From Paenibacillus taiwanensis DSM 18679 (GTDB taxonomy: Bacteria > Bacillota > Bacilli > Paenibacillales > Paenibacillaceae), in assembly GCF_000425125.1 (NCBI RefSeq), contig NZ_KE384306.1:397705-461704 (forward strand): a stretch of 64,000 nucleotides of DNA. Reading direction: 5' to 3'. The stretch's first letter is position 1. Each line of letters opens with the position of its first letter. Of this stretch, positions 13,230 through 25,021 are shown in pieces. Position numbers and translations under genes: made by a program. The notes beneath the pieces are model-generated. The model did not search any database. It was not told where the DNA came from and worked only from the letters and a program-made list of their open reading frames with translations.

Positions 13230-14525
13230 ATGATATCCATGTTACGTAAGAAGAAAAGTTCGATGTTCGATAGCCTTGATAGTGGATCGTGTCGTATTGA
13301 TGTGCCACAAGCGATGTTAAATCAATTGCGAATGATTGGGTTGACTACACGTGACCTCGCTATGCTAAAGCAGCTAAGGCCGCATGTAGAGGACAGCATC
13401 GACAAGACAATTGACTCATTTTATGACACGGTGAATAAAGAAAAACAGTTAAGTGACATCATCCGCAAGCATAGCCACACAGATCGCCTCAAGCTTACAC
13501 TACGGCCGCATCTGATGCAGTTGTTCGAAGGAAAGATCGATGAAGTATACATAGAGAGACGCCGCATTGTAGCACATGTTCATGTCCGCATTCATTTACC
13601 AACCAAATGGTATATCGCCTCTTTTCATACGCTCCAGCAATCCATTTTAGAAACCGCTTACAAATTAGGAATATCCTTGGATGAATATAAAGCACTAGAG
13701 CAGGCGATTACACGTATGCTTAATCTGGAGCAGCAGCTTGTGCTAGAAGCGTATGAACAGGAGCACAGTCGGCTGCGTGCAGAGGCAGAAGTGGAGAAGG
13801 TGAAAGTTCGTCGCATGGTGTCTGAGGCAAGTGAAGCCCTATCACATAGCACGGCCGAGACGCAGCAAGCTCTAAATGAAATGGTTCAACGTTCTCAGGG
13901 AATGTTTGAGAAAGTACGTTCTAGCAATCAAACCTCTGACTCAGTAGCTGTGCTTTCGCACGATGGCAGCTTGATGTTAGGCGAGCAGCAAGCACGTATG
14001 GAAAATATCGTAAGCGCGATGAATCAGGTAACGGGCCGTATGACGGAGCTGATGTCCATATCTGAAGAGATTCATCAAATTATGGACATCGTACAAGGGA
14101 TATCACAGCAGACGCAGCTTCTTGCCTTGAATGCAACAATTGAAGCCGCACATGCTGAAGAACATGGAAAAGGCTTTGCTGTTGTGGCGCGTGAGGTCCG
14201 TCGTATGGCGGAGCGGACGAATGAATCGTCAACTGTTATTCAGCATTTGATCGGCAAAACACATGAGAAGATTGCTGTGATTAATGAAGTGATGCAGGAG
14301 GTGGACAACCGTATTCAGACGGGCAATGGGGAGACGGGAAAAGCGTTTGAATTCTTCTCGCATATTTACGAGCAGATTCAACATCATCAGCAGCAAAGCC
14401 AGGAAGTGCTAACCGACGTTGAGTTTCTTGGCTCGATGCTAGAGGAGATTCGGGAAGCCTCGGATGCGGTTAATCATCAGGCAGATGTCTTGATGGATAT
14501 GATTCAGCAAGAACAGAAAGTTTAA
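13230..14525 (+). CDS. Globin-coupled sensor, HemAT-like methyl-accepting protein
   Basis: The 431-residue protein has an N-terminal protoglobin domain (about 20-175) and a C-terminal methyl-accepting signalling domain. The globin part has AHVHVRIHLPTKWYIASF, with His118 at the place of the haem-binding proximal His of B. subtilis HemAT. The signalling hairpin tip includes LALNATIEAAHAEEHGKGFAVVAREVRRMAERT. There is no signal peptide, membrane helix or HAMP domain, so it should be a soluble oxygen or gas sensor. The ATG at 13230 lies nine bases after AGGGGGA. No che genes are nearby. Confidence 0.9.
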   Translation: MISMLRKKKSSMFDSLDSGSCRIDVPQAMLNQLRMIGLTTRDLAMLKQLRPHVEDSIDKTIDSFYDTVNKEKQLSDIIRKHSHTDRLKLTLRPHLMQLFEGKIDEVYIERRRIVAHVHVRIHLPTKWYIASFHTLQQSILETAYKLGISLDEYKALEQAITRMLNLEQQLVLEAYEQEHSRLRAEAEVEKVKVRRMVSEASEALSHSTAETQQALNEMVQRSQGMFEKVRSSNQTSDSVAVLSHDGSLMLGEQQARMENIVSAMNQVTGRMTELMSISEEIHQIMDIVQGISQQTQLLALNATIEAAHAEEHGKGFAVVAREVRRMAERTNESSTVIQHLIGKTHEKIAVINEVMQEVDNRIQTGNGETGKAFEFFSHIYEQIQHHQQQSQEVLTDVEFLGSMLEEIREASDAVNHQADVLMDMIQQEQKV

Positions 14526-14612: not shown

Positions 14613-15308
14613 TTAAAATAACAAGGGGGGATCACTAATAGCTGTTATACATTCAGGCGAATCGTGTTTAACATTACCTACTTTAGGATCTACAGGATAC
14701 ATCTCCAGCCACTCAGAAGGACAGGGCTTTAATAACCGTTGCAGCTTGTCCACTTCTACAACACTTCTGTCCAGCCATGTGGACGCCTCTTCAGGGCCTA
14801 GTATGACTGGCATTCGATCATGTACTTGCTCCATTGTCCGATTCGGAGTTGTTGTGACGATGGTAAAAGTGCTCATTTTCTCTCCATGTTCATTTCTCCA
14901 AGTGTCATATAGACCTGCCATGCTGAATAAACCTCCGTCAGCGGGGACGATACGCAGCGGTTGTTTCTTGCCATCGCTTGCAAGCTTCCATTCGTAAAAG
15001 CTGTCCGCTGGAATGAGGCAGCGTTTGCGTTGGAACGGTTGGCGAAACGCCGGCTTCTCTAGCAGCGTCTCAGCACGGGCATTTAGGGTACGCCATCCCA
15101 TCTTGTCATCTTTCGCCCAAGAAGGTATTAATCCCCATCGCAGAGGTCCTGCCTTCCGTTTTTCCCCATCATGAATAATAGCCGGCGCTGTTTGCCCGGG
15201 CGCTATATTGTAGCGCGGTTGATGGCAGGCAACAGACGGACCTTCCTCCAACTCGTAATACATGAGAAGTTCTTCCCACGTGATGGTTAGAGTGTAACGT
15301 CCACACAT
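14613..15308 (-). CDS. SRAP/HMCES-family abasic-site DNA-protein crosslinking protein
   Basis: The 231-residue protein begins MCGRYTL, and Cys2 becomes the N-terminal residue that forms a thiazolidine crosslink with abasic sites in single-stranded DNA. Other family motifs are the Asn in PRYNIAPGQ, ARAETLLEKPAF, RCLIPADSFYEW with the catalytic Glu, and VHDRMPVIL with the conserved His. Length is standard (about 220-235). The ATG follows AAGGAGGTGTTACAT. Bacterial members often sit near translesion polymerases, and a Y-family polymerase lies 3 kb away. No LexA box was found just upstream. Confidence 0.93.
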   Translation of the reverse strand: MCGRYTLTITWEELLMYYELEEGPSVACHQPRYNIAPGQTAPAIIHDGEKRKAGPLRWGLIPSWAKDDKMGWRTLNARAETLLEKPAFRQPFQRKRCLIPADSFYEWKLASDGKKQPLRIVPADGGLFSMAGLYDTWRNEHGEKMSTFTIVTTTPNRTMEQVHDRMPVILGPEEASTWLDRSVVEVDKLQRLLKPCPSEWLEMYPVDPKVGNVKHDSPECITAISDPPLLF

Positions 15309-15730
15309 TTATGTAACACCTCCTTTGCTTTACAACGGGTACAACGGGGATGCAGTCTTAGGCCCACATGTCCATATGTCTGCATTGTAGCATATCGTGA
15401 ATCGACTCGACTAATGCAATAGGGGGAAGTGACGCAGTTCACTAGCTCTAGGCACATTTAGTGTCATGTCATGCACACATTGACGATAAAGATCGATCGA
15501 TATGCGTTTACAAATGGACCGCTATATTTTCAACTGCTGAAATCTACCAGATGTTTGACAGAATGTTGTCATATTTCATAGCTTTGCAGCATATTATAGA
15601 ATATCAGTGCAACGAGCACTGCGCTGATTGAGTTGTGATGATGATGTTTCATTTTTATATTTCAATGATTGATCGTAGGCCAGAACGTTAACGATAGGAA
15701 GCTTATAATAGATTAGGGAGGTTGAGCTTT
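15309..15730. other. Divergent intergenic region
   Basis: No gene is supported here. It separates the minus-strand SRAP gene from the protease-nuclease gene and holds the TGACA palindrome at 15556-15571. TATAAT occurs at 15704-15709 but is too close to the SD to be the main promoter. A weaker TTTCAT-N17-TAGAAT pair begins near 15573. Confidence 0.4.
15556..15571. promoter_or_regulatory. TGACA-N6-TGTCA palindrome
   Basis: A perfect 5-bp inverted repeat with a 6-base spacer begins one base into a TTGACA hexamer (15555-15560). It lies about 160 bases upstream of the protease-nuclease gene. It is a possible operator; the cognate regulator is unknown. Confidence 0.35.
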
Positions 15731-17560
15731 ATGTTTATCCATCCGATCAACAAGGCTTCATCCGAATTTATCGGGATATCCTTACAAGCAAAGCAAAATG
15801 ATCTGACTACACAGCGATATCAACAACGGTCCAATGAGCGGGGCAAAAATTTGTCAGCGTTACAGTGCAAAAATCCTTTTGAAGTGGATAGCCCTGAAAG
15901 GGCTGCACAACGCCAACAATTTATTGATCCTAGAGACGGAATGGCACTAGAACGTATTTTAGGAAAAAGCGACTTATTTCCAATCAGCTTTTTTGAAAAG
16001 GGGCTGCAAGTCAGTAAGGCCATCTGTAGGGTGGAGATCCGTGATCGAACGGGAAGAGTCGAAGGATTTGGGACAGGCTTTCTCGTAACTCCCAATCTGC
16101 TGCTGACCAATAATCATGTCCTGCCTAATTCGGATACGACGTTATCCAGTATGGCGCAGTTTAATTATGAAATCGATCTGAACGGGAAAGAACGAGTCAT
16201 GCATAGCTTTCGATTGATGCCAGACCGGTTTTATATGACGAATGAGGAATTGGATTTTACGTTGGTAGCAGTTGAAGAGCAAGCTTCTGATGGAACCCCA
16301 TTAGCCGAATTCGGTTACTTGTCTTTGGTTAAACAAACAGGCAAGGTGCTGATTGGAGAATATGTGTCCATTATTCAGCATCCGTCTGGTGCACCCAAAG
16401 CAGTAGTCGTAAGAGAGAACAAAATAACAGATATGCTAGATAACTTTATTCACTATTCTGCTGATACTTTGCCAGGCTCATCAGGTTCTGCTGTATTTAA
16501 TGATGAATGGATGGTAGTTGCGCTCCATCATGCGGGTGTCCCTGATCCGAAAAATCCGGCGGAGTTTATTGCGAATGAAGGTGTCCGTATAAGCAGTATC
16601 CTCAAGTATATTGAAGAACAGAAGTCGAATCTAACCGCTCAACAGCAGCAGTATGTGGATCGTCTAACATTATCTGCTGAAGGGACTAGCCCAGAAGGAG
16701 AGAAGCTTGCAGTAGGAGAGGAATTAGGCCTGGTATGGTATGAGGGGTTAACCGGCCACGATAGCAAGTTTCTAGGTGACGCTCATGAAGTTCATCATCC
16801 TTCGTTTCGTACGGATCTCGAACCAGACCTGGCAAGGCTAAAACAAGGCGGCACCATTCTTCATTATACGCATTTCTCCATTGTGATGAGCAAATCTCGG
16901 CGACTCGCCTATTACACGGTAGTTGACATTGATGGCAGCCAATTAACTGATTATGACAGGGTAGATTGGCGCTATGATCCGCGTATTGATCGGATGTATC
17001 AATGTGGTAATGAATTGTACAAGGACAACCCTCTGGATCGAGGACATTTAGTAAGGAGAAGGGACCCGGTGTGGGGGAGAGCGGGAGCGCAAGCAAACAT
17101 CGATTCTTTTCATTTTACGAACTGTTCACCGCAGCATGAGAAATTTAATCAGCAGATATGGCTTGGGCTGGAGGATTATATTTTAAATCATATGAGTAAT
17201 ACGAAGCGCAAAGCCTCTGTATTTACGGGTCCTGTATTCCGTAAGGATGATATCTGGTATCGAAATGTTCAAATTCCTTCTGAATATTGGAAAATTGCTG
17301 TTATGGTCGATCATAACGACCGGCTATCGGTAACGGCATACCTCACATCCCAGTGGAGCTTGATTAAATATTTAGGAACGGCGAAGGAAGAAGAACCTGT
17401 GCTAGGCGCCTACAAAACATTTCAGGTTAAAGTTTCCTTGCTTGAGGCGTTGACGGGGCTGGATTTTGGAAATTTGCGTCTATACGACCGGCTAGATCTG
17501 AAGGAGTCTACATTCGGACAAGTTCCGATTGAGCGTTTTGACGATATACAGCTGATTTGA
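15731..17560 (+). CDS. Trypsin-like serine protease fused to NUC1-type endonuclease
   Basis: The 609-residue protein has no signal peptide or membrane helix. After about 70 residues comes a short helical segment with ALERILGKSDLFPISF, resembling the small adaptor domains of bacterial conflict proteins. A trypsin-fold protease (about 95-290) has His129 (LLTNNHVLP), Asp175 (ELDFTLV) and Ser251 (PGSSGSAVF). The C-terminal half (about 345-605) is a DNA/RNA non-specific endonuclease with DRGH at 436-439 and FTNCSPQHEKFNQQIW. The ATG at 15731 lies nine bases after GGAGG; a TTG at 15722 is in the SD. It is a single-gene unit next to DNA-damage genes. A defence or stress role is inference. Confidence 0.85.
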   Translation: MFIHPINKASSEFIGISLQAKQNDLTTQRYQQRSNERGKNLSALQCKNPFEVDSPERAAQRQQFIDPRDGMALERILGKSDLFPISFFEKGLQVSKAICRVEIRDRTGRVEGFGTGFLVTPNLLLTNNHVLPNSDTTLSSMAQFNYEIDLNGKERVMHSFRLMPDRFYMTNEELDFTLVAVEEQASDGTPLAEFGYLSLVKQTGKVLIGEYVSIIQHPSGAPKAVVVRENKITDMLDNFIHYSADTLPGSSGSAVFNDEWMVVALHHAGVPDPKNPAEFIANEGVRISSILKYIEEQKSNLTAQQQQYVDRLTLSAEGTSPEGEKLAVGEELGLVWYEGLTGHDSKFLGDAHEVHHPSFRTDLEPDLARLKQGGTILHYTHFSIVMSKSRRLAYYTVVDIDGSQLTDYDRVDWRYDPRIDRMYQCGNELYKDNPLDRGHLVRRRDPVWGRAGAQANIDSFHFTNCSPQHEKFNQQIWLGLEDYILNHMSNTKRKASVFTGPVFRKDDIWYRNVQIPSEYWKIAVMVDHNDRLSVTAYLTSQWSLIKYLGTAKEEEPVLGAYKTFQVKVSLLEALTGLDFGNLRLYDRLDLKESTFGQVPIERFDDIQLI

Positions 17561-17883
17561 TCGTAGTTCTATGCTTTTTAGGCTATAAATAGATGTGTGC
17601 TGCAAGATTGTAATGAGAGGTCAAACGGGAAACTGGCTGGCCTCTCAGTATTGTGAATAATAGTGTGCGTATATCAAGCTATCAAGCTAGCCGCTTTGCT
17701 TAAAGGGAACTTTGTTTATTTATCTTCATATCTTGCAGTATATCTTTCCTTTTGAGCTTTCGTAATTTGATTTTGGAATACATCTTTTTGAATAGTTACT
17801 TATGTTTAACGATAATAGGGTAGCGTTCAAGTTCTGTAACAAGTTGAAAATTGAAAATTAAAGGGAAATGTAATCAAAGAGGG

Positions 17884-17921
17884 TTCCACATAGTAGTTGC
17901 ATACTATGTGGAATTTTTTTT
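17884..17921 (+). terminator. Strong Rho-independent terminator
   Basis: A perfect 12-bp stem TTCCACATAGTA/TACTATGTGGAA with a 6-base loop is followed by eight T. Confidence 0.85.
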
Positions 17922-18060: not shown

Positions 18061-18089
18061 TTGCATAACGAACAAGTGTTCTGTATATA
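18061..18089 (+). promoter_or_regulatory. Promoter of the Y-family polymerase operon
   Basis: TTGCAT (18061-18066) and TATATA (18084-18089) are separated by exactly 17 bases. A LexA box fills the spacer, so repressor binding would block RNA polymerase. Confidence 0.7.
18069..18082. promoter_or_regulatory. LexA (SOS) box
   Basis: CGAACAAGTGTTCT matches 13 of 14 positions of the Gram-positive LexA consensus CGAACRNRYGTTYC. It sits between the -35 and -10 elements. Confidence 0.85.
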
Positions 18090-20127: not shown

Positions 20128-20541
20128 TTACGGAGCGATTGTATTCGGTTGTTCCGCAGAATGAATGTGCAAGTAACGCTTCACTAGGCTAGTGACTTCA
20201 GTGCGCAGCAGACCACGCAGCATGTAGAAAGAATGCTCGTAGCCTCTGCACATGTAGTGTACACGTATACCATGAGTTTGTCGTTCTTCATCATATACTT
20301 TGATTCCTCTCTGTCTGAATTGCTTACGAATGCGATAGAGTTCTGCGGTCGCCTCGTCTTGAGCTTGGCGCAGACTTTCTATGTAAATGTAGGCCATCTT
20401 CAGCGAGGAAGAGGCTAGTCCGGCGATATCACGCTCCAGAACATCGAGGACTAGCGCTTGTAACACATACTGTTTGACGAGCAGTGCGTCGTCAGTGTGA
20501 TGGGGTAGCGTCCCTTGTGGGGAGGTTGGACGGGAGCTCAT
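20128..20541 (-). CDS. Paralogue of the YolD-like partner, SOS-box linked
   Basis: The 137-residue protein aligns over about 110 residues with the C-terminal part of the gene at 19464-19946. Shared features are LVKQYVLQALVL, IKVYDEERQTHGIRVHY and a CRGYEHSF segment matching YRDYEDRL. It lacks the N-terminal YolD-like signature, so this C-terminal region is a separate domain. The ATG follows AAAGGAGGCGTCAC. A LexA-like box lies 38 bases upstream. No known function; linkage to DNA-damage response is inferred. Confidence 0.7.
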   Translation of the reverse strand: MSSRPTSPQGTLPHHTDDALLVKQYVLQALVLDVLERDIAGLASSSLKMAYIYIESLRQAQDEATAELYRIRKQFRQRGIKVYDEERQTHGIRVHYMCRGYEHSFYMLRGLLRTEVTSLVKRYLHIHSAEQPNTIAP

Positions 20542-20578
20542 GTGACGCCTCCTTTATATCGTTATAATGAATATAATA

Positions 20579-20592
20579 CGAACTTATGTTCT
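20579..20592. promoter_or_regulatory. LexA-like box in divergent region (1)
   Basis: CGAACTTATGTTCT matches 12 of 14 positions of CGAACRNRYGTTYC. It lies upstream of the minus-strand YolD-partner paralogue in an AT-rich stretch rich in TATAAT-like hexamers. Confidence 0.65.
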
Positions 20593-20609
20593 TATTATAT
20601 TCAATATAA

Positions 20610-20623
20610 CGAACAAATATTCG
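20610..20623. promoter_or_regulatory. LexA-like box in divergent region (2)
   Basis: CGAACAAATATTCG matches 12 of 14 positions of the LexA consensus. It is 31 bases from the first box (about three helical turns) and closer to the DUF2164 gene. Confidence 0.55.
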
Positions 20624-20716
20624 ATTATCAAGCGGAAGTGAGTGCCAAAGGGAAGGAATGAGCAGGATATTGTCGAAGTGTATCAATGGGTTAGAACAAA
20701 GGAGCGTGGGCAGCAA

Positions 20717-23736: not shown

Positions 23737-24774
23737 TTAGGCCATTCTAAATATAGCTATACCATTGTCCGTTGTTGCTGTTGAGCCCACGGTATTTCCG
23801 TCGTACACGAGTCGGAGAACGTTCGGTCCTGCACCTGTAACAATAATGGCTGAATTTGCAAAGTTCTCCCTTGCTCCTACGCCACCGCCAACAGAAACAT
23901 TTGATGAACCGGGAACCGGTGTACCATTAAGTTCTAATCGTGTTGTAAAGGAGGAGCCAGCAGATGTGTACTGGAGAGATGCGTCATAGGTAACCCAGAA
24001 CGTGGAGTTGGGGGCTAATAAAATATCTGTGGTAGGAATTGCAGCAGTAATATCACCAGAGCTTTGATGGATAGGGATCGTCCATGTTATGGCTTCAGGA
24101 GCATCTGCAATCGCTTGCCCCGTTTCAGAAGCCTGGAAGTAACTGGTTGTGAACGATGGGCCTGTAGCTCCAGTAATTCCAACACCCGTAGCGCCTGTTG
24201 GGCCAGTAGCTCCAACGCCCGTAGCCCCGGTAGCCCCCGTAGCGCCGGCTGCACCGTCGGCGCCAGTCGGCCCTGTGGCACCCGTAGCACCTGCTGGTCC
24301 AGGATCGCCCGTAGCACCCGTGGCGCCTGCTAGTCCATTAGCACCTGTAGCTCCCGTAGCACCCGCTGGTCCAGTAGCACCCGTAGCACCAGAGGCTCCT
24401 GTAGCTCCCGTACTACCAGTAGGCCCTACGGGTCCGCCTGACGGACCTGTTGGCCCTGTTATACCAGTAGGTCCCGTAAGGGAAGGTGCATTTAAAATAG
24501 TTTCCAATTTAGTTGAAAGCAGCATTTCTTTCTTGATCGTTTCTTGTAAAGTACTCTTTACACTTGCGTCGACAGCAAGAAGATCGCTTATAGTTGCAGG
24601 GATGGATAATCCAGGTAAAGTACCAACTGCATATTGAATCTTTTCTGCCTCAGCGTTAATCACGTGCCCAAGTCCGAGCTCTTCGATTGCAATAGACGAC
24701 AAGAGTAAGTTTAAGGCGTCATCTCTTGTAATCGTAATGCTAGGGGTAATATTAGGCAGGTTTGCCTGTGACAT
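23737..24774 (-). CDS. Collagen-like spore-surface protein (BclA type)
   Basis: The 345-residue protein has three parts. The N-terminal ~115 residues ([32 protein letters not shown] in two halves) resemble Paenibacillus exosporium/spore proteins. The central ~110 residues are Gly-x-Thr/Ala triplets such as [10 protein letters not shown]. The C-terminal ~125 residues form a beta-rich domain of the BclA/C1q-like type ending NGIAIFRMA. Such proteins make hair-like, often glycosylated, filaments on spores. The ATG at 24774 follows AAGGAG by ten bases; a GTG three codons earlier is too close to the SD. No signal peptide is seen, as is usual for mother-cell spore proteins. Confidence 0.85.
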
Positions 24775-25021
24775 TAATATCACTCCTTAATAGATAGATA
24801 ATTAATAAACACAACACAGCATATTCATAGAAATAGAAGGTGTACTACCTCAGAGGCAAAATCCGCAAGTATGCTGCGTATAGCAGGTTATTAATTTGGG
24901 CTTGATTCACGAGCCGCTCGCCATTGCAATACGAGAGATCGTGGATAGGATGAAGGAATAAAGTCTATCGTAATGCCATACAGCTTCAGGCTTTTCTGAG
25001 TATGTCACATAGAAATGAAAT

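Follow-up and report, generated by a model that had tools for sequence, protein, structure and literature searches.

In the 64,000-nucleotide window of the Paenibacillus taiwanensis DSM 18679 contig NZ_KE384306.1, one gene (15731..17560, + strand, stop codon included) encodes a 609-residue protein that combines a trypsin-like protease and a NucA-type nuclease in a single chain. We lean towards reading this protein as a self-destruct effector that works in the cytoplasm and is gated by its protease, a single-gene form of the published NucA-trypsin kind. In the resting state, a V8/FAM111A-like protease would be monomeric and inactive, with the NucA-type nuclease retained in the same polypeptide. 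Stress or infection would provide a signal that joins chains through their N-terminal helices and activates the protease, which would cut after glutamate in a flexible linker (residues ~314–339) and in other targets. The nuclease unit, from about residue 340, would then degrade DNA and RNA, ending in growth stop or cell death. What we infer is that the protease rests in an inactive state, that dimerisation triggers it, that the linker is its substrate and that the whole serves abortive defence or programmed death.

Architecture, conservation and predicted location

The open reading frame (ORF) spans 15722–17560 on the + strand, and its likely start is the ATG at 15731, preceded by AGGGAGG. The initial annotation had placed a trypsin triad and a DRGH nuclease motif in one protein, and this was borne out: the residues are present, and Pfam matched Trypsin_2 at residues 114–265 (E 3.2e-21) and Endonuclease_NS at residues 373–581 (E 3.2e-46), both above the curated cut-off. 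His129 (16115..16117), Asp175 (16253..16255) and Ser251 (16481..16483) form the triad of a V8-like trypsin domain (residues 98–300, 16022..16630) that is supported by Pfam, by solved-structure matches and by the AlphaFold2 model. The NucA/EndoG-type nuclease unit (residues 340–609, 16748..17557) begins at a conserved G-[YH]-D-x-x-FLG, and two stand-alone relatives (L107 and L108) start a few residues ahead of this boundary. It contains the DRGH motif (residues 436–439, 17036..17047) with the catalytic His439, and Asn473 to Glu481 (17147..17173), the metal-site residues expected from NucA and Serratia nuclease. By sequence, the closest solved structures are SplE and V8-type glutamyl endopeptidases for the protease part, and Anabaena NucA and EndoG for the nuclease part. 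The AlphaFold2 model was built on a 99-row alignment with a predicted local distance difference test (pLDDT) of 90.9 and replaced an earlier 24-row fold (pLDDT 62.5). It gives an N-terminal helical region at residues 9–64 (15755..15922; helices 9–32, 34–46, 49–52 and 55–64), which has no Pfam domain, and a linker at residues 314–339 (16670..16747), the predicted cleavage region, with pLDDT below 50 at 318–325. All these features lie on the + strand.

Relatives were collected in two ways. Among 7,989 scored candidates the homologue search found 3,272, of which 120 were listed; the locus search confirmed at least 530 relatives, of which the closest 80 were kept for the locus analyses. For one of these (L064) no core ORF was picked, so ORF-based counts refer to 79 of the 80 loci. 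Length was the criterion for picking ORFs, and it can mislead where GC content is high: in four high-GC loci (L052, L056, L063 and L075) the wrong frame was chosen, and these were re-read by match range for the alignment and left out of the count of linker glutamates. In the 183 aligned rows (the protein itself, the 120 listed homologues and 62 loci), D175, S251, H439, N473 and E481 are each kept in 183, and H129 in 182, the exception (L045) being truncated near a contig end. Among the full-length members examined, neither activity appears to have decayed.

Export was assessed with a crude hydropathy score with a limit of 1.8, for which two plainly secreted subtilases served as positive controls (2.27 and 3.16). 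The P. taiwanensis protein scored 0.78 and has no N-terminal hydrophobic segment, and none of 121 proteins (this one and the 120 listed homologues) exceeded the limit. Only one core ORF among the 79 loci did so (L007, 645 aa), and it starts upstream of a database protein with the same species name (P0058, 597 aa). Because the test was negative in the protein and its 120 listed homologues, the trypsin-NucA protein is very probably cytoplasmic, as had been claimed for both activities from the lack of a signal peptide. Relatives that are always secreted, or loss of a catalytic set across the family, had been named among the findings that would speak against the proposal; the relatives show no sign of export and full-length members retain every catalytic residue, although trypsin-less nucleases exist. 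NucA- and V8-type enzymes are often secreted, and some relatives have other digestive-type hydrolases as neighbours, some with export signals (two subtilases at L006, an M14 carboxypeptidase at L098), as would suit an enzyme that degrades material outside the cell once lysis or non-classical release has set it free, in nutrient scavenging or neighbour killing. We regard this explanation as unlikely, given the absence of a signal peptide from the protein, from the 120 listed homologues and from the five proteins tested in three metzincin-or-papain partner groups, and given that the NACHT, CHAT and caspase partners of relatives are intracellular types.

Two further positions point to the specificity of the protease. 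T246 (kept in 180 of 183 rows) and H266 (182 of 183) align with a Thr and a His of the V8-type chain 1wcz, presumably the S1-pocket residues Thr164 and His184 of V8. A V8-like S1 pocket predicts cleavage after glutamate. A Foldseek search with the model returned the FAM111A serine protease domain (PDB 8s9k) as its first match. In a second structure alignment, which was dominated by the nuclease, the match to this domain starts at residue 80 of the model and residue 339 of the chain. The matched range takes in what is described as the N-terminal dimerisation helix of FAM111A (PMC10920703). FAM111A is a human protein described with chymotrypsin-like specificity and no nuclease, and the likeness is by matched range, not residue by residue (PMC10920703). 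Residues 72–97 (15944..16021; helix 85–95) had been described as an adaptor-like segment, suggestive of an effector-associated domain. A Pfam scan of the protein up to E 1 matched no such domain, and a profile search of the genome gave no match to EAD1, which is weak since no control matched either. The segment ERILGKSDLFPISF is conserved and is kept also in relatives that join trypsin to an EEP nuclease. The 'adaptor' is the N-terminal part of the protease module, at the place of the FAM111A dimerisation helix.

Genomic setting of the gene and of its relatives

The trypsin-NucA gene is the sole copy in the 5.2-Mb genome, which has no other Endonuclease_NS match. Its nearest named relative in the protein search, among the 120 homologues listed, is from Paenibacillus sp. 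UMB4589-SE434 (93% identical). It was correctly placed between an SRAP gene (14613–15308, − strand) upstream and, downstream, an SOS operon with a Y-family polymerase (18199, + strand); as a conserved setting this did not hold. By tblastn, both are near the gene in one of 80 loci, the 93% sister L002 (apparently the same genome as L106 and counted once), where the polymerase is on the opposite strand; neither is near it in the other 79. LexA-like boxes with one mismatch lie at 18069 (before the polymerase), 20579, 20610 and 59467, and none precedes the trypsin-NucA gene; matches with two mismatches are near chance (28 vs 22.4, reached in 13 of 100 shuffles). Between the gene and the SOS operon there is a terminator-like hairpin (17876..17921, + strand; 20 pairs, of which 4 are G-C, followed by a T run), one of three terminator-like sites in the window against 2.1 in shuffles. 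Because of the single locus in 80, the lack of a LexA-like box before the gene and the intervening hairpin, the setting looks incidental and private to this lineage.

SOS regulation of the trypsin-NucA gene was considered and found no support, with no near-consensus LexA-like box ahead of it and the hairpin before the SOS operon. The same facts bear on a possible role as a DNA-protein-crosslink repair enzyme, with a FAM111A-like protease and a nuclease acting beside SRAP and a translesion polymerase. The FAM111A resemblance and the flanking genes, shared with the sister, would fit such a role; their absence near the gene in 79 of 80 loci, the opposite strand of the sister polymerase, the missing box, the hairpin and the rarity of the gene in its own family make it very improbable. 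SRAP itself is a peptidase only by Pfam family name.

Other features of the window were also recorded. The boxes at 20579 (CGAACTTATGTTCT) and 20610 (CGAACAAATATTCG) lie in the gap (20541–20642) between an ORF for a 137-aa protein with no Pfam match (20128–20541, − strand) and a DUF2164 ORF (from 20642, + strand), possibly an SOS-regulated pair. A globin-coupled sensor, Protoglobin fused to a chemotaxis signalling domain, is encoded at 13230–14525 (+ strand), and a collagen-like ORF rich in G-x-T-G repeats at 23737–24783 (− strand).

Neighbours of the relatives are enriched in proteases. In 79 of the 80 loci, ORFs with subtilisin, metzincin or papain motifs numbered 13 of 261 within 2 kb of the gene, 3 of 196 at 2–4 kb and 0 of 294 at 4–8 kb (Fisher p 4.7e-5, related loci not being independent); two of the 13 are the secreted subtilases of L006. 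Metzincins lie just upstream in Neobacillus and Lysinibacillus, a papain-family protease 15–20 bp downstream in Peptostreptococcaceae, Filifactor and Anaerolineaceae bins, M43 proteases downstream in Rhodococcus and Gordonia, C92 and subtilisin neighbours in Psychrobacillus and Sporosarcina, a matrixin 87 bp downstream in Stanieria and an M57 protease ~5 kb upstream in Nostoc. A matrixin domain is part of the same chain in two of the 120 listed proteins (P0027 and P0107). In some Actinomycetota the upstream gene product is a NACHT protein (in L059) or combines CHAT, ATPase and subtilase parts (in L055). Pfam and PADLOC scans of neighbours covered 73 loci and 255 proteins after seven near-duplicates of the 80 were dropped, and a second batch of 114 includes nine proteins added from plasmid and Paenibacillus loci. 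Pfam counted subtilase in 7 of 150 and 4 of 114 proteins, CHAT in 4 of 114, NACHT and M43 each in 3 of 114, and papain and astacin each in 3 of 150. Rhizobial plasmid copies have genes for S1/P1 nuclease, CHAT, phospholipase D-like or patatin proteins nearby, or a serine protease 3 kb away. No neighbour of this sort accompanies the NGR234 copy or, going by its annotation, a Paenibacillus polymyxa plasmid copy; one plasmid region is without annotation. In the survey for defence islands that the initial annotation had proposed, the neighbourhoods are protease-rich and some include NACHT or CHAT, with few classical defence genes. Neighbours that matched subtilase or IetS in PADLOC were not taken as signs of a defence island. 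The protein itself had no full-length match in PADLOC (2023), and its four matches all fall within residues 94–299 (RT-Protease_XI, 7.4e-10 and 9.9e-9; LmuA, 2.6e-6; PDC-M35A, 0.0023). In the P. taiwanensis genome, a search for NACHT (PF05729), the one STAND family searched genome-wide, found none (11 of 14 controls matched, 3 over the cut-off), and a search run without a positive control found no metzincin partner.

Three neighbouring genes were noted separately. In two Paenibacillaceae genomes another trypsin-like protease, divergent in sequence, is encoded ~110 bp away from trypsin-NucA (L102:8047-9048 and L105:8010-9029), and the L102 copy matches Pfam Trypsin_2. A 438-aa protein encoded 16 bp upstream of the P. 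polymyxa plasmid copy (L112:8617-9933) has no Pfam match and by eye resembles the peptidylarginine/agmatine deiminase family.

Distribution and exchange of modules

Relatives are frequent in Bacillota and were also found in Actinomycetota, Methanosarcina, cyanobacteria, Planctomycetota, Pseudomonadota and other phyla. The family is patchy. In its own taxonomic family, 17 of 295 genomes have some match and six, P. taiwanensis included, a full-length one; in a phylum sample the count is two of 398, again including P. taiwanensis. Across 398 genomes of its class the nuclease part was matched in 18, seven of them in frames longer than 580 aa. Plasmid records matched in 127 cases at any coverage and in 31 with at least 80% coverage, and the one sign of phage carriage was a weak record that covers just part of the nuclease. 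A tree of the closest 80 loci and the query has 11 phylum changes (minimum 9, shuffled mean 38), which gain and loss inside phyla would fit better than rampant transfer between phyla.

Both modules also occur in other combinations, all of them outside the window. In three Paenibacillaceae loci (L094-L096), the position of NucA is taken by an EEP nuclease and an Endonuclease I domain, which come after the same protease module (39–43% identity); Pfam assigned these domains on L094. A search with this protein listed 120 relatives, all with Trypsin_2; 37 carry Endonuclease I, 26 a GDSL hydrolase besides EEP, and 57 neither. The triad is aligned and complete in 91 of the 120, and the other 29, cut at 330 residues for alignment, carry a motif of the GxSG[SA] type later in the sequence. 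The NucA unit, in turn, lies behind a subtilisin gene in L092/L101 (Pfam E 3.3e-68, 4-bp overlap) and behind a subtilisin with a broken frame in L107. In L098:4313-6897 and the like-looking L099 and L100, all of one genus, it stands alone after a gene for an M14 carboxypeptidase whose start is signal-like; it is also alone in L108, L136 and L137, the last two of which by eye retain the fusion linker. In another Paenibacillaceae locus (L097:2695-4733), the protease module with a hydrophobic C-terminus (411-aa ORF) lies directly upstream of a caspase gene (Peptidase_C14, E 5.8e-36).

A metzincin gene (L095:6829-7692) lies directly upstream of one trypsin-EEP-EndoI gene, the picked ORFs overlapping by 29 bp, and by eye a subtilase-like fragment is nearby.

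Weighing of the effector reading and comparison with known systems

Several findings weigh against a protease-gated effector. Glutamate is only modestly enriched in the linker (10.2% vs 6.7%), and a linker of this length would be expected to hold at least one anyway. Autocleavage of FAM111A is described as independent of dimerisation (PMC10920703). With a predicted template modelling score of 0.59, the model does not predict the arrangement of the domains, hence any occlusion of the nuclease. The ten window neighbours scanned include no protease partner and no NTPase, few classical defence genes stand beside relatives in the Pfam and PADLOC neighbour scans, which had no background control, and the tree is mostly clustered by phylum, so that cross-phylum transfer looks limited. 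Because trypsin-less NucA relatives exist (L098-L100, L108, L136 and L137), the nuclease is tolerated without gating in cis.

The main doubt concerns the nuclease as the killer, and it comes from LypC of the Caulobacter LypABC system, a CARD-NLR-like system described in 2026. In the published experiments the S296A substitution abolishes lysis and H471A and N505A do not, so that the protease Ser is needed and the nuclease His and Asn are dispensable (PMC13236601). Compared by description, LypC likewise has an N-terminal trypsin-like protease, a flexible linker and a C-terminal endonuclease in one chain, with a His-to-Asn spacing of 34, the same as from 439 to 473 here; unlike the P. taiwanensis protein, in whose genome no NACHT was found, it works with LypA (CARD) and LypB (NLR) (PMC13236601). 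The Endonuclease_NS profile has matches in Caulobacter vibrioides. As apparently the nearest tested protein, LypC argues by analogy that killing need not be the work of the nuclease. The protease would on this account be the executor, cutting other cell proteins once activated and so bringing about lysis or death, and the nuclease would be auxiliary, serving in folding, DNA clean-up or another situation. The shared domain order and spacing speak for it, whereas a scaffold role leaves the conservation of the nuclease residues in 183 of 183 rows unexplained and some relatives retain the nuclease without the trypsin; we judge it rather unlikely.

For the protease-gated effector, a mechanistic analogue is available. 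Tuck et al. (2025) describe a trypsin-like (or caspase) protease that activates a pro-nuclease, with HamM cut by the trypsin-like domain, and report that the dimerised protease is toxic (PMC12799240). HamM/protease-HamA, Avs and Canu resemble our proposal in that a cytoplasmic protease activates a pro-nuclease; they differ in that the HamM nuclease is of the metallo-beta-lactamase fold and encoded by a separate gene, the protease is fused to a sensor and HamA cuts after Ile (PMC12799240). The earlier idea that the protease frees the nuclease is partly supported, by the co-conserved sites, a published proposal, the HamM analogue and the enrichment of proteases near relatives, and is weakened by LypC, which lyses cells without nuclease activity.

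A broader and more tentative possibility is a large intracellular zymogen superfamily of bacteria and archaea, in which a V8/FAM111A-like protease, switched by dimerisation through its N-terminal helix, would be combined with NucA, EEP, or EEP with EndoI or GDSL, and with metzincin, papain, M43 or subtilisin partners; in Bacillota it might form a one-gene apoptosis-like device that lacks an NLR sensor and cuts its own linker after Glu. The relatives suggest that proteases and nucleases are swapped as freely as warheads in polymorphic toxins. If the effector reading is true, this protein would be about the smallest protease-to-nuclease death switch to study, at 609 residues, and a human protease with antiviral and replication roles would be linked to the death proteases of bacteria by a FAM111A-like activation helix.

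The earliest record found of the Tryp-Endonuclease_NS architecture is one Fusobacterium nucleatum protein (NP_604177.1) in a 2008 survey, filed there under nucleic acid metabolism; it has the same two domains in one protein and is likened by domain description only (PMC2605481). A literature search found no experimental study of the Bacillota single-gene trypsin-NucA form. The closest published proposal is System 3 of Kaur et al. (2020), which treats fused or operonic NucA and trypsin as the core of a conflict system and proposes that a proteolytic cascade, which subtilisin can join, deploys the nuclease (PMC7159879). The P. taiwanensis protein corresponds in having a NucA-type domain with its catalytic residues and a trypsin-like peptidase in the same chain. 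It differs in coming from Paenibacillus, whereas System 3 is described as mostly alphaproteobacterial, and in that the EAD1, transmembrane or STAND parts of some members were not found here (PMC7159879). Metzincin, papain, M43 and C92 partners and the exchange with EEP, EndoI or GDSL are not in the System 3 section of that paper, and a word search of its main text did not find 'EEP', 'exonuclease' or 'SGNH' (PMC7159879). The interpretation is already published as a hypothesis, and this protein is a well-conserved member of the predicted kind; to it our analysis adds the exchange of modules, the many proteases around relatives, the likeness of the protease to FAM111A and a testable gating step.
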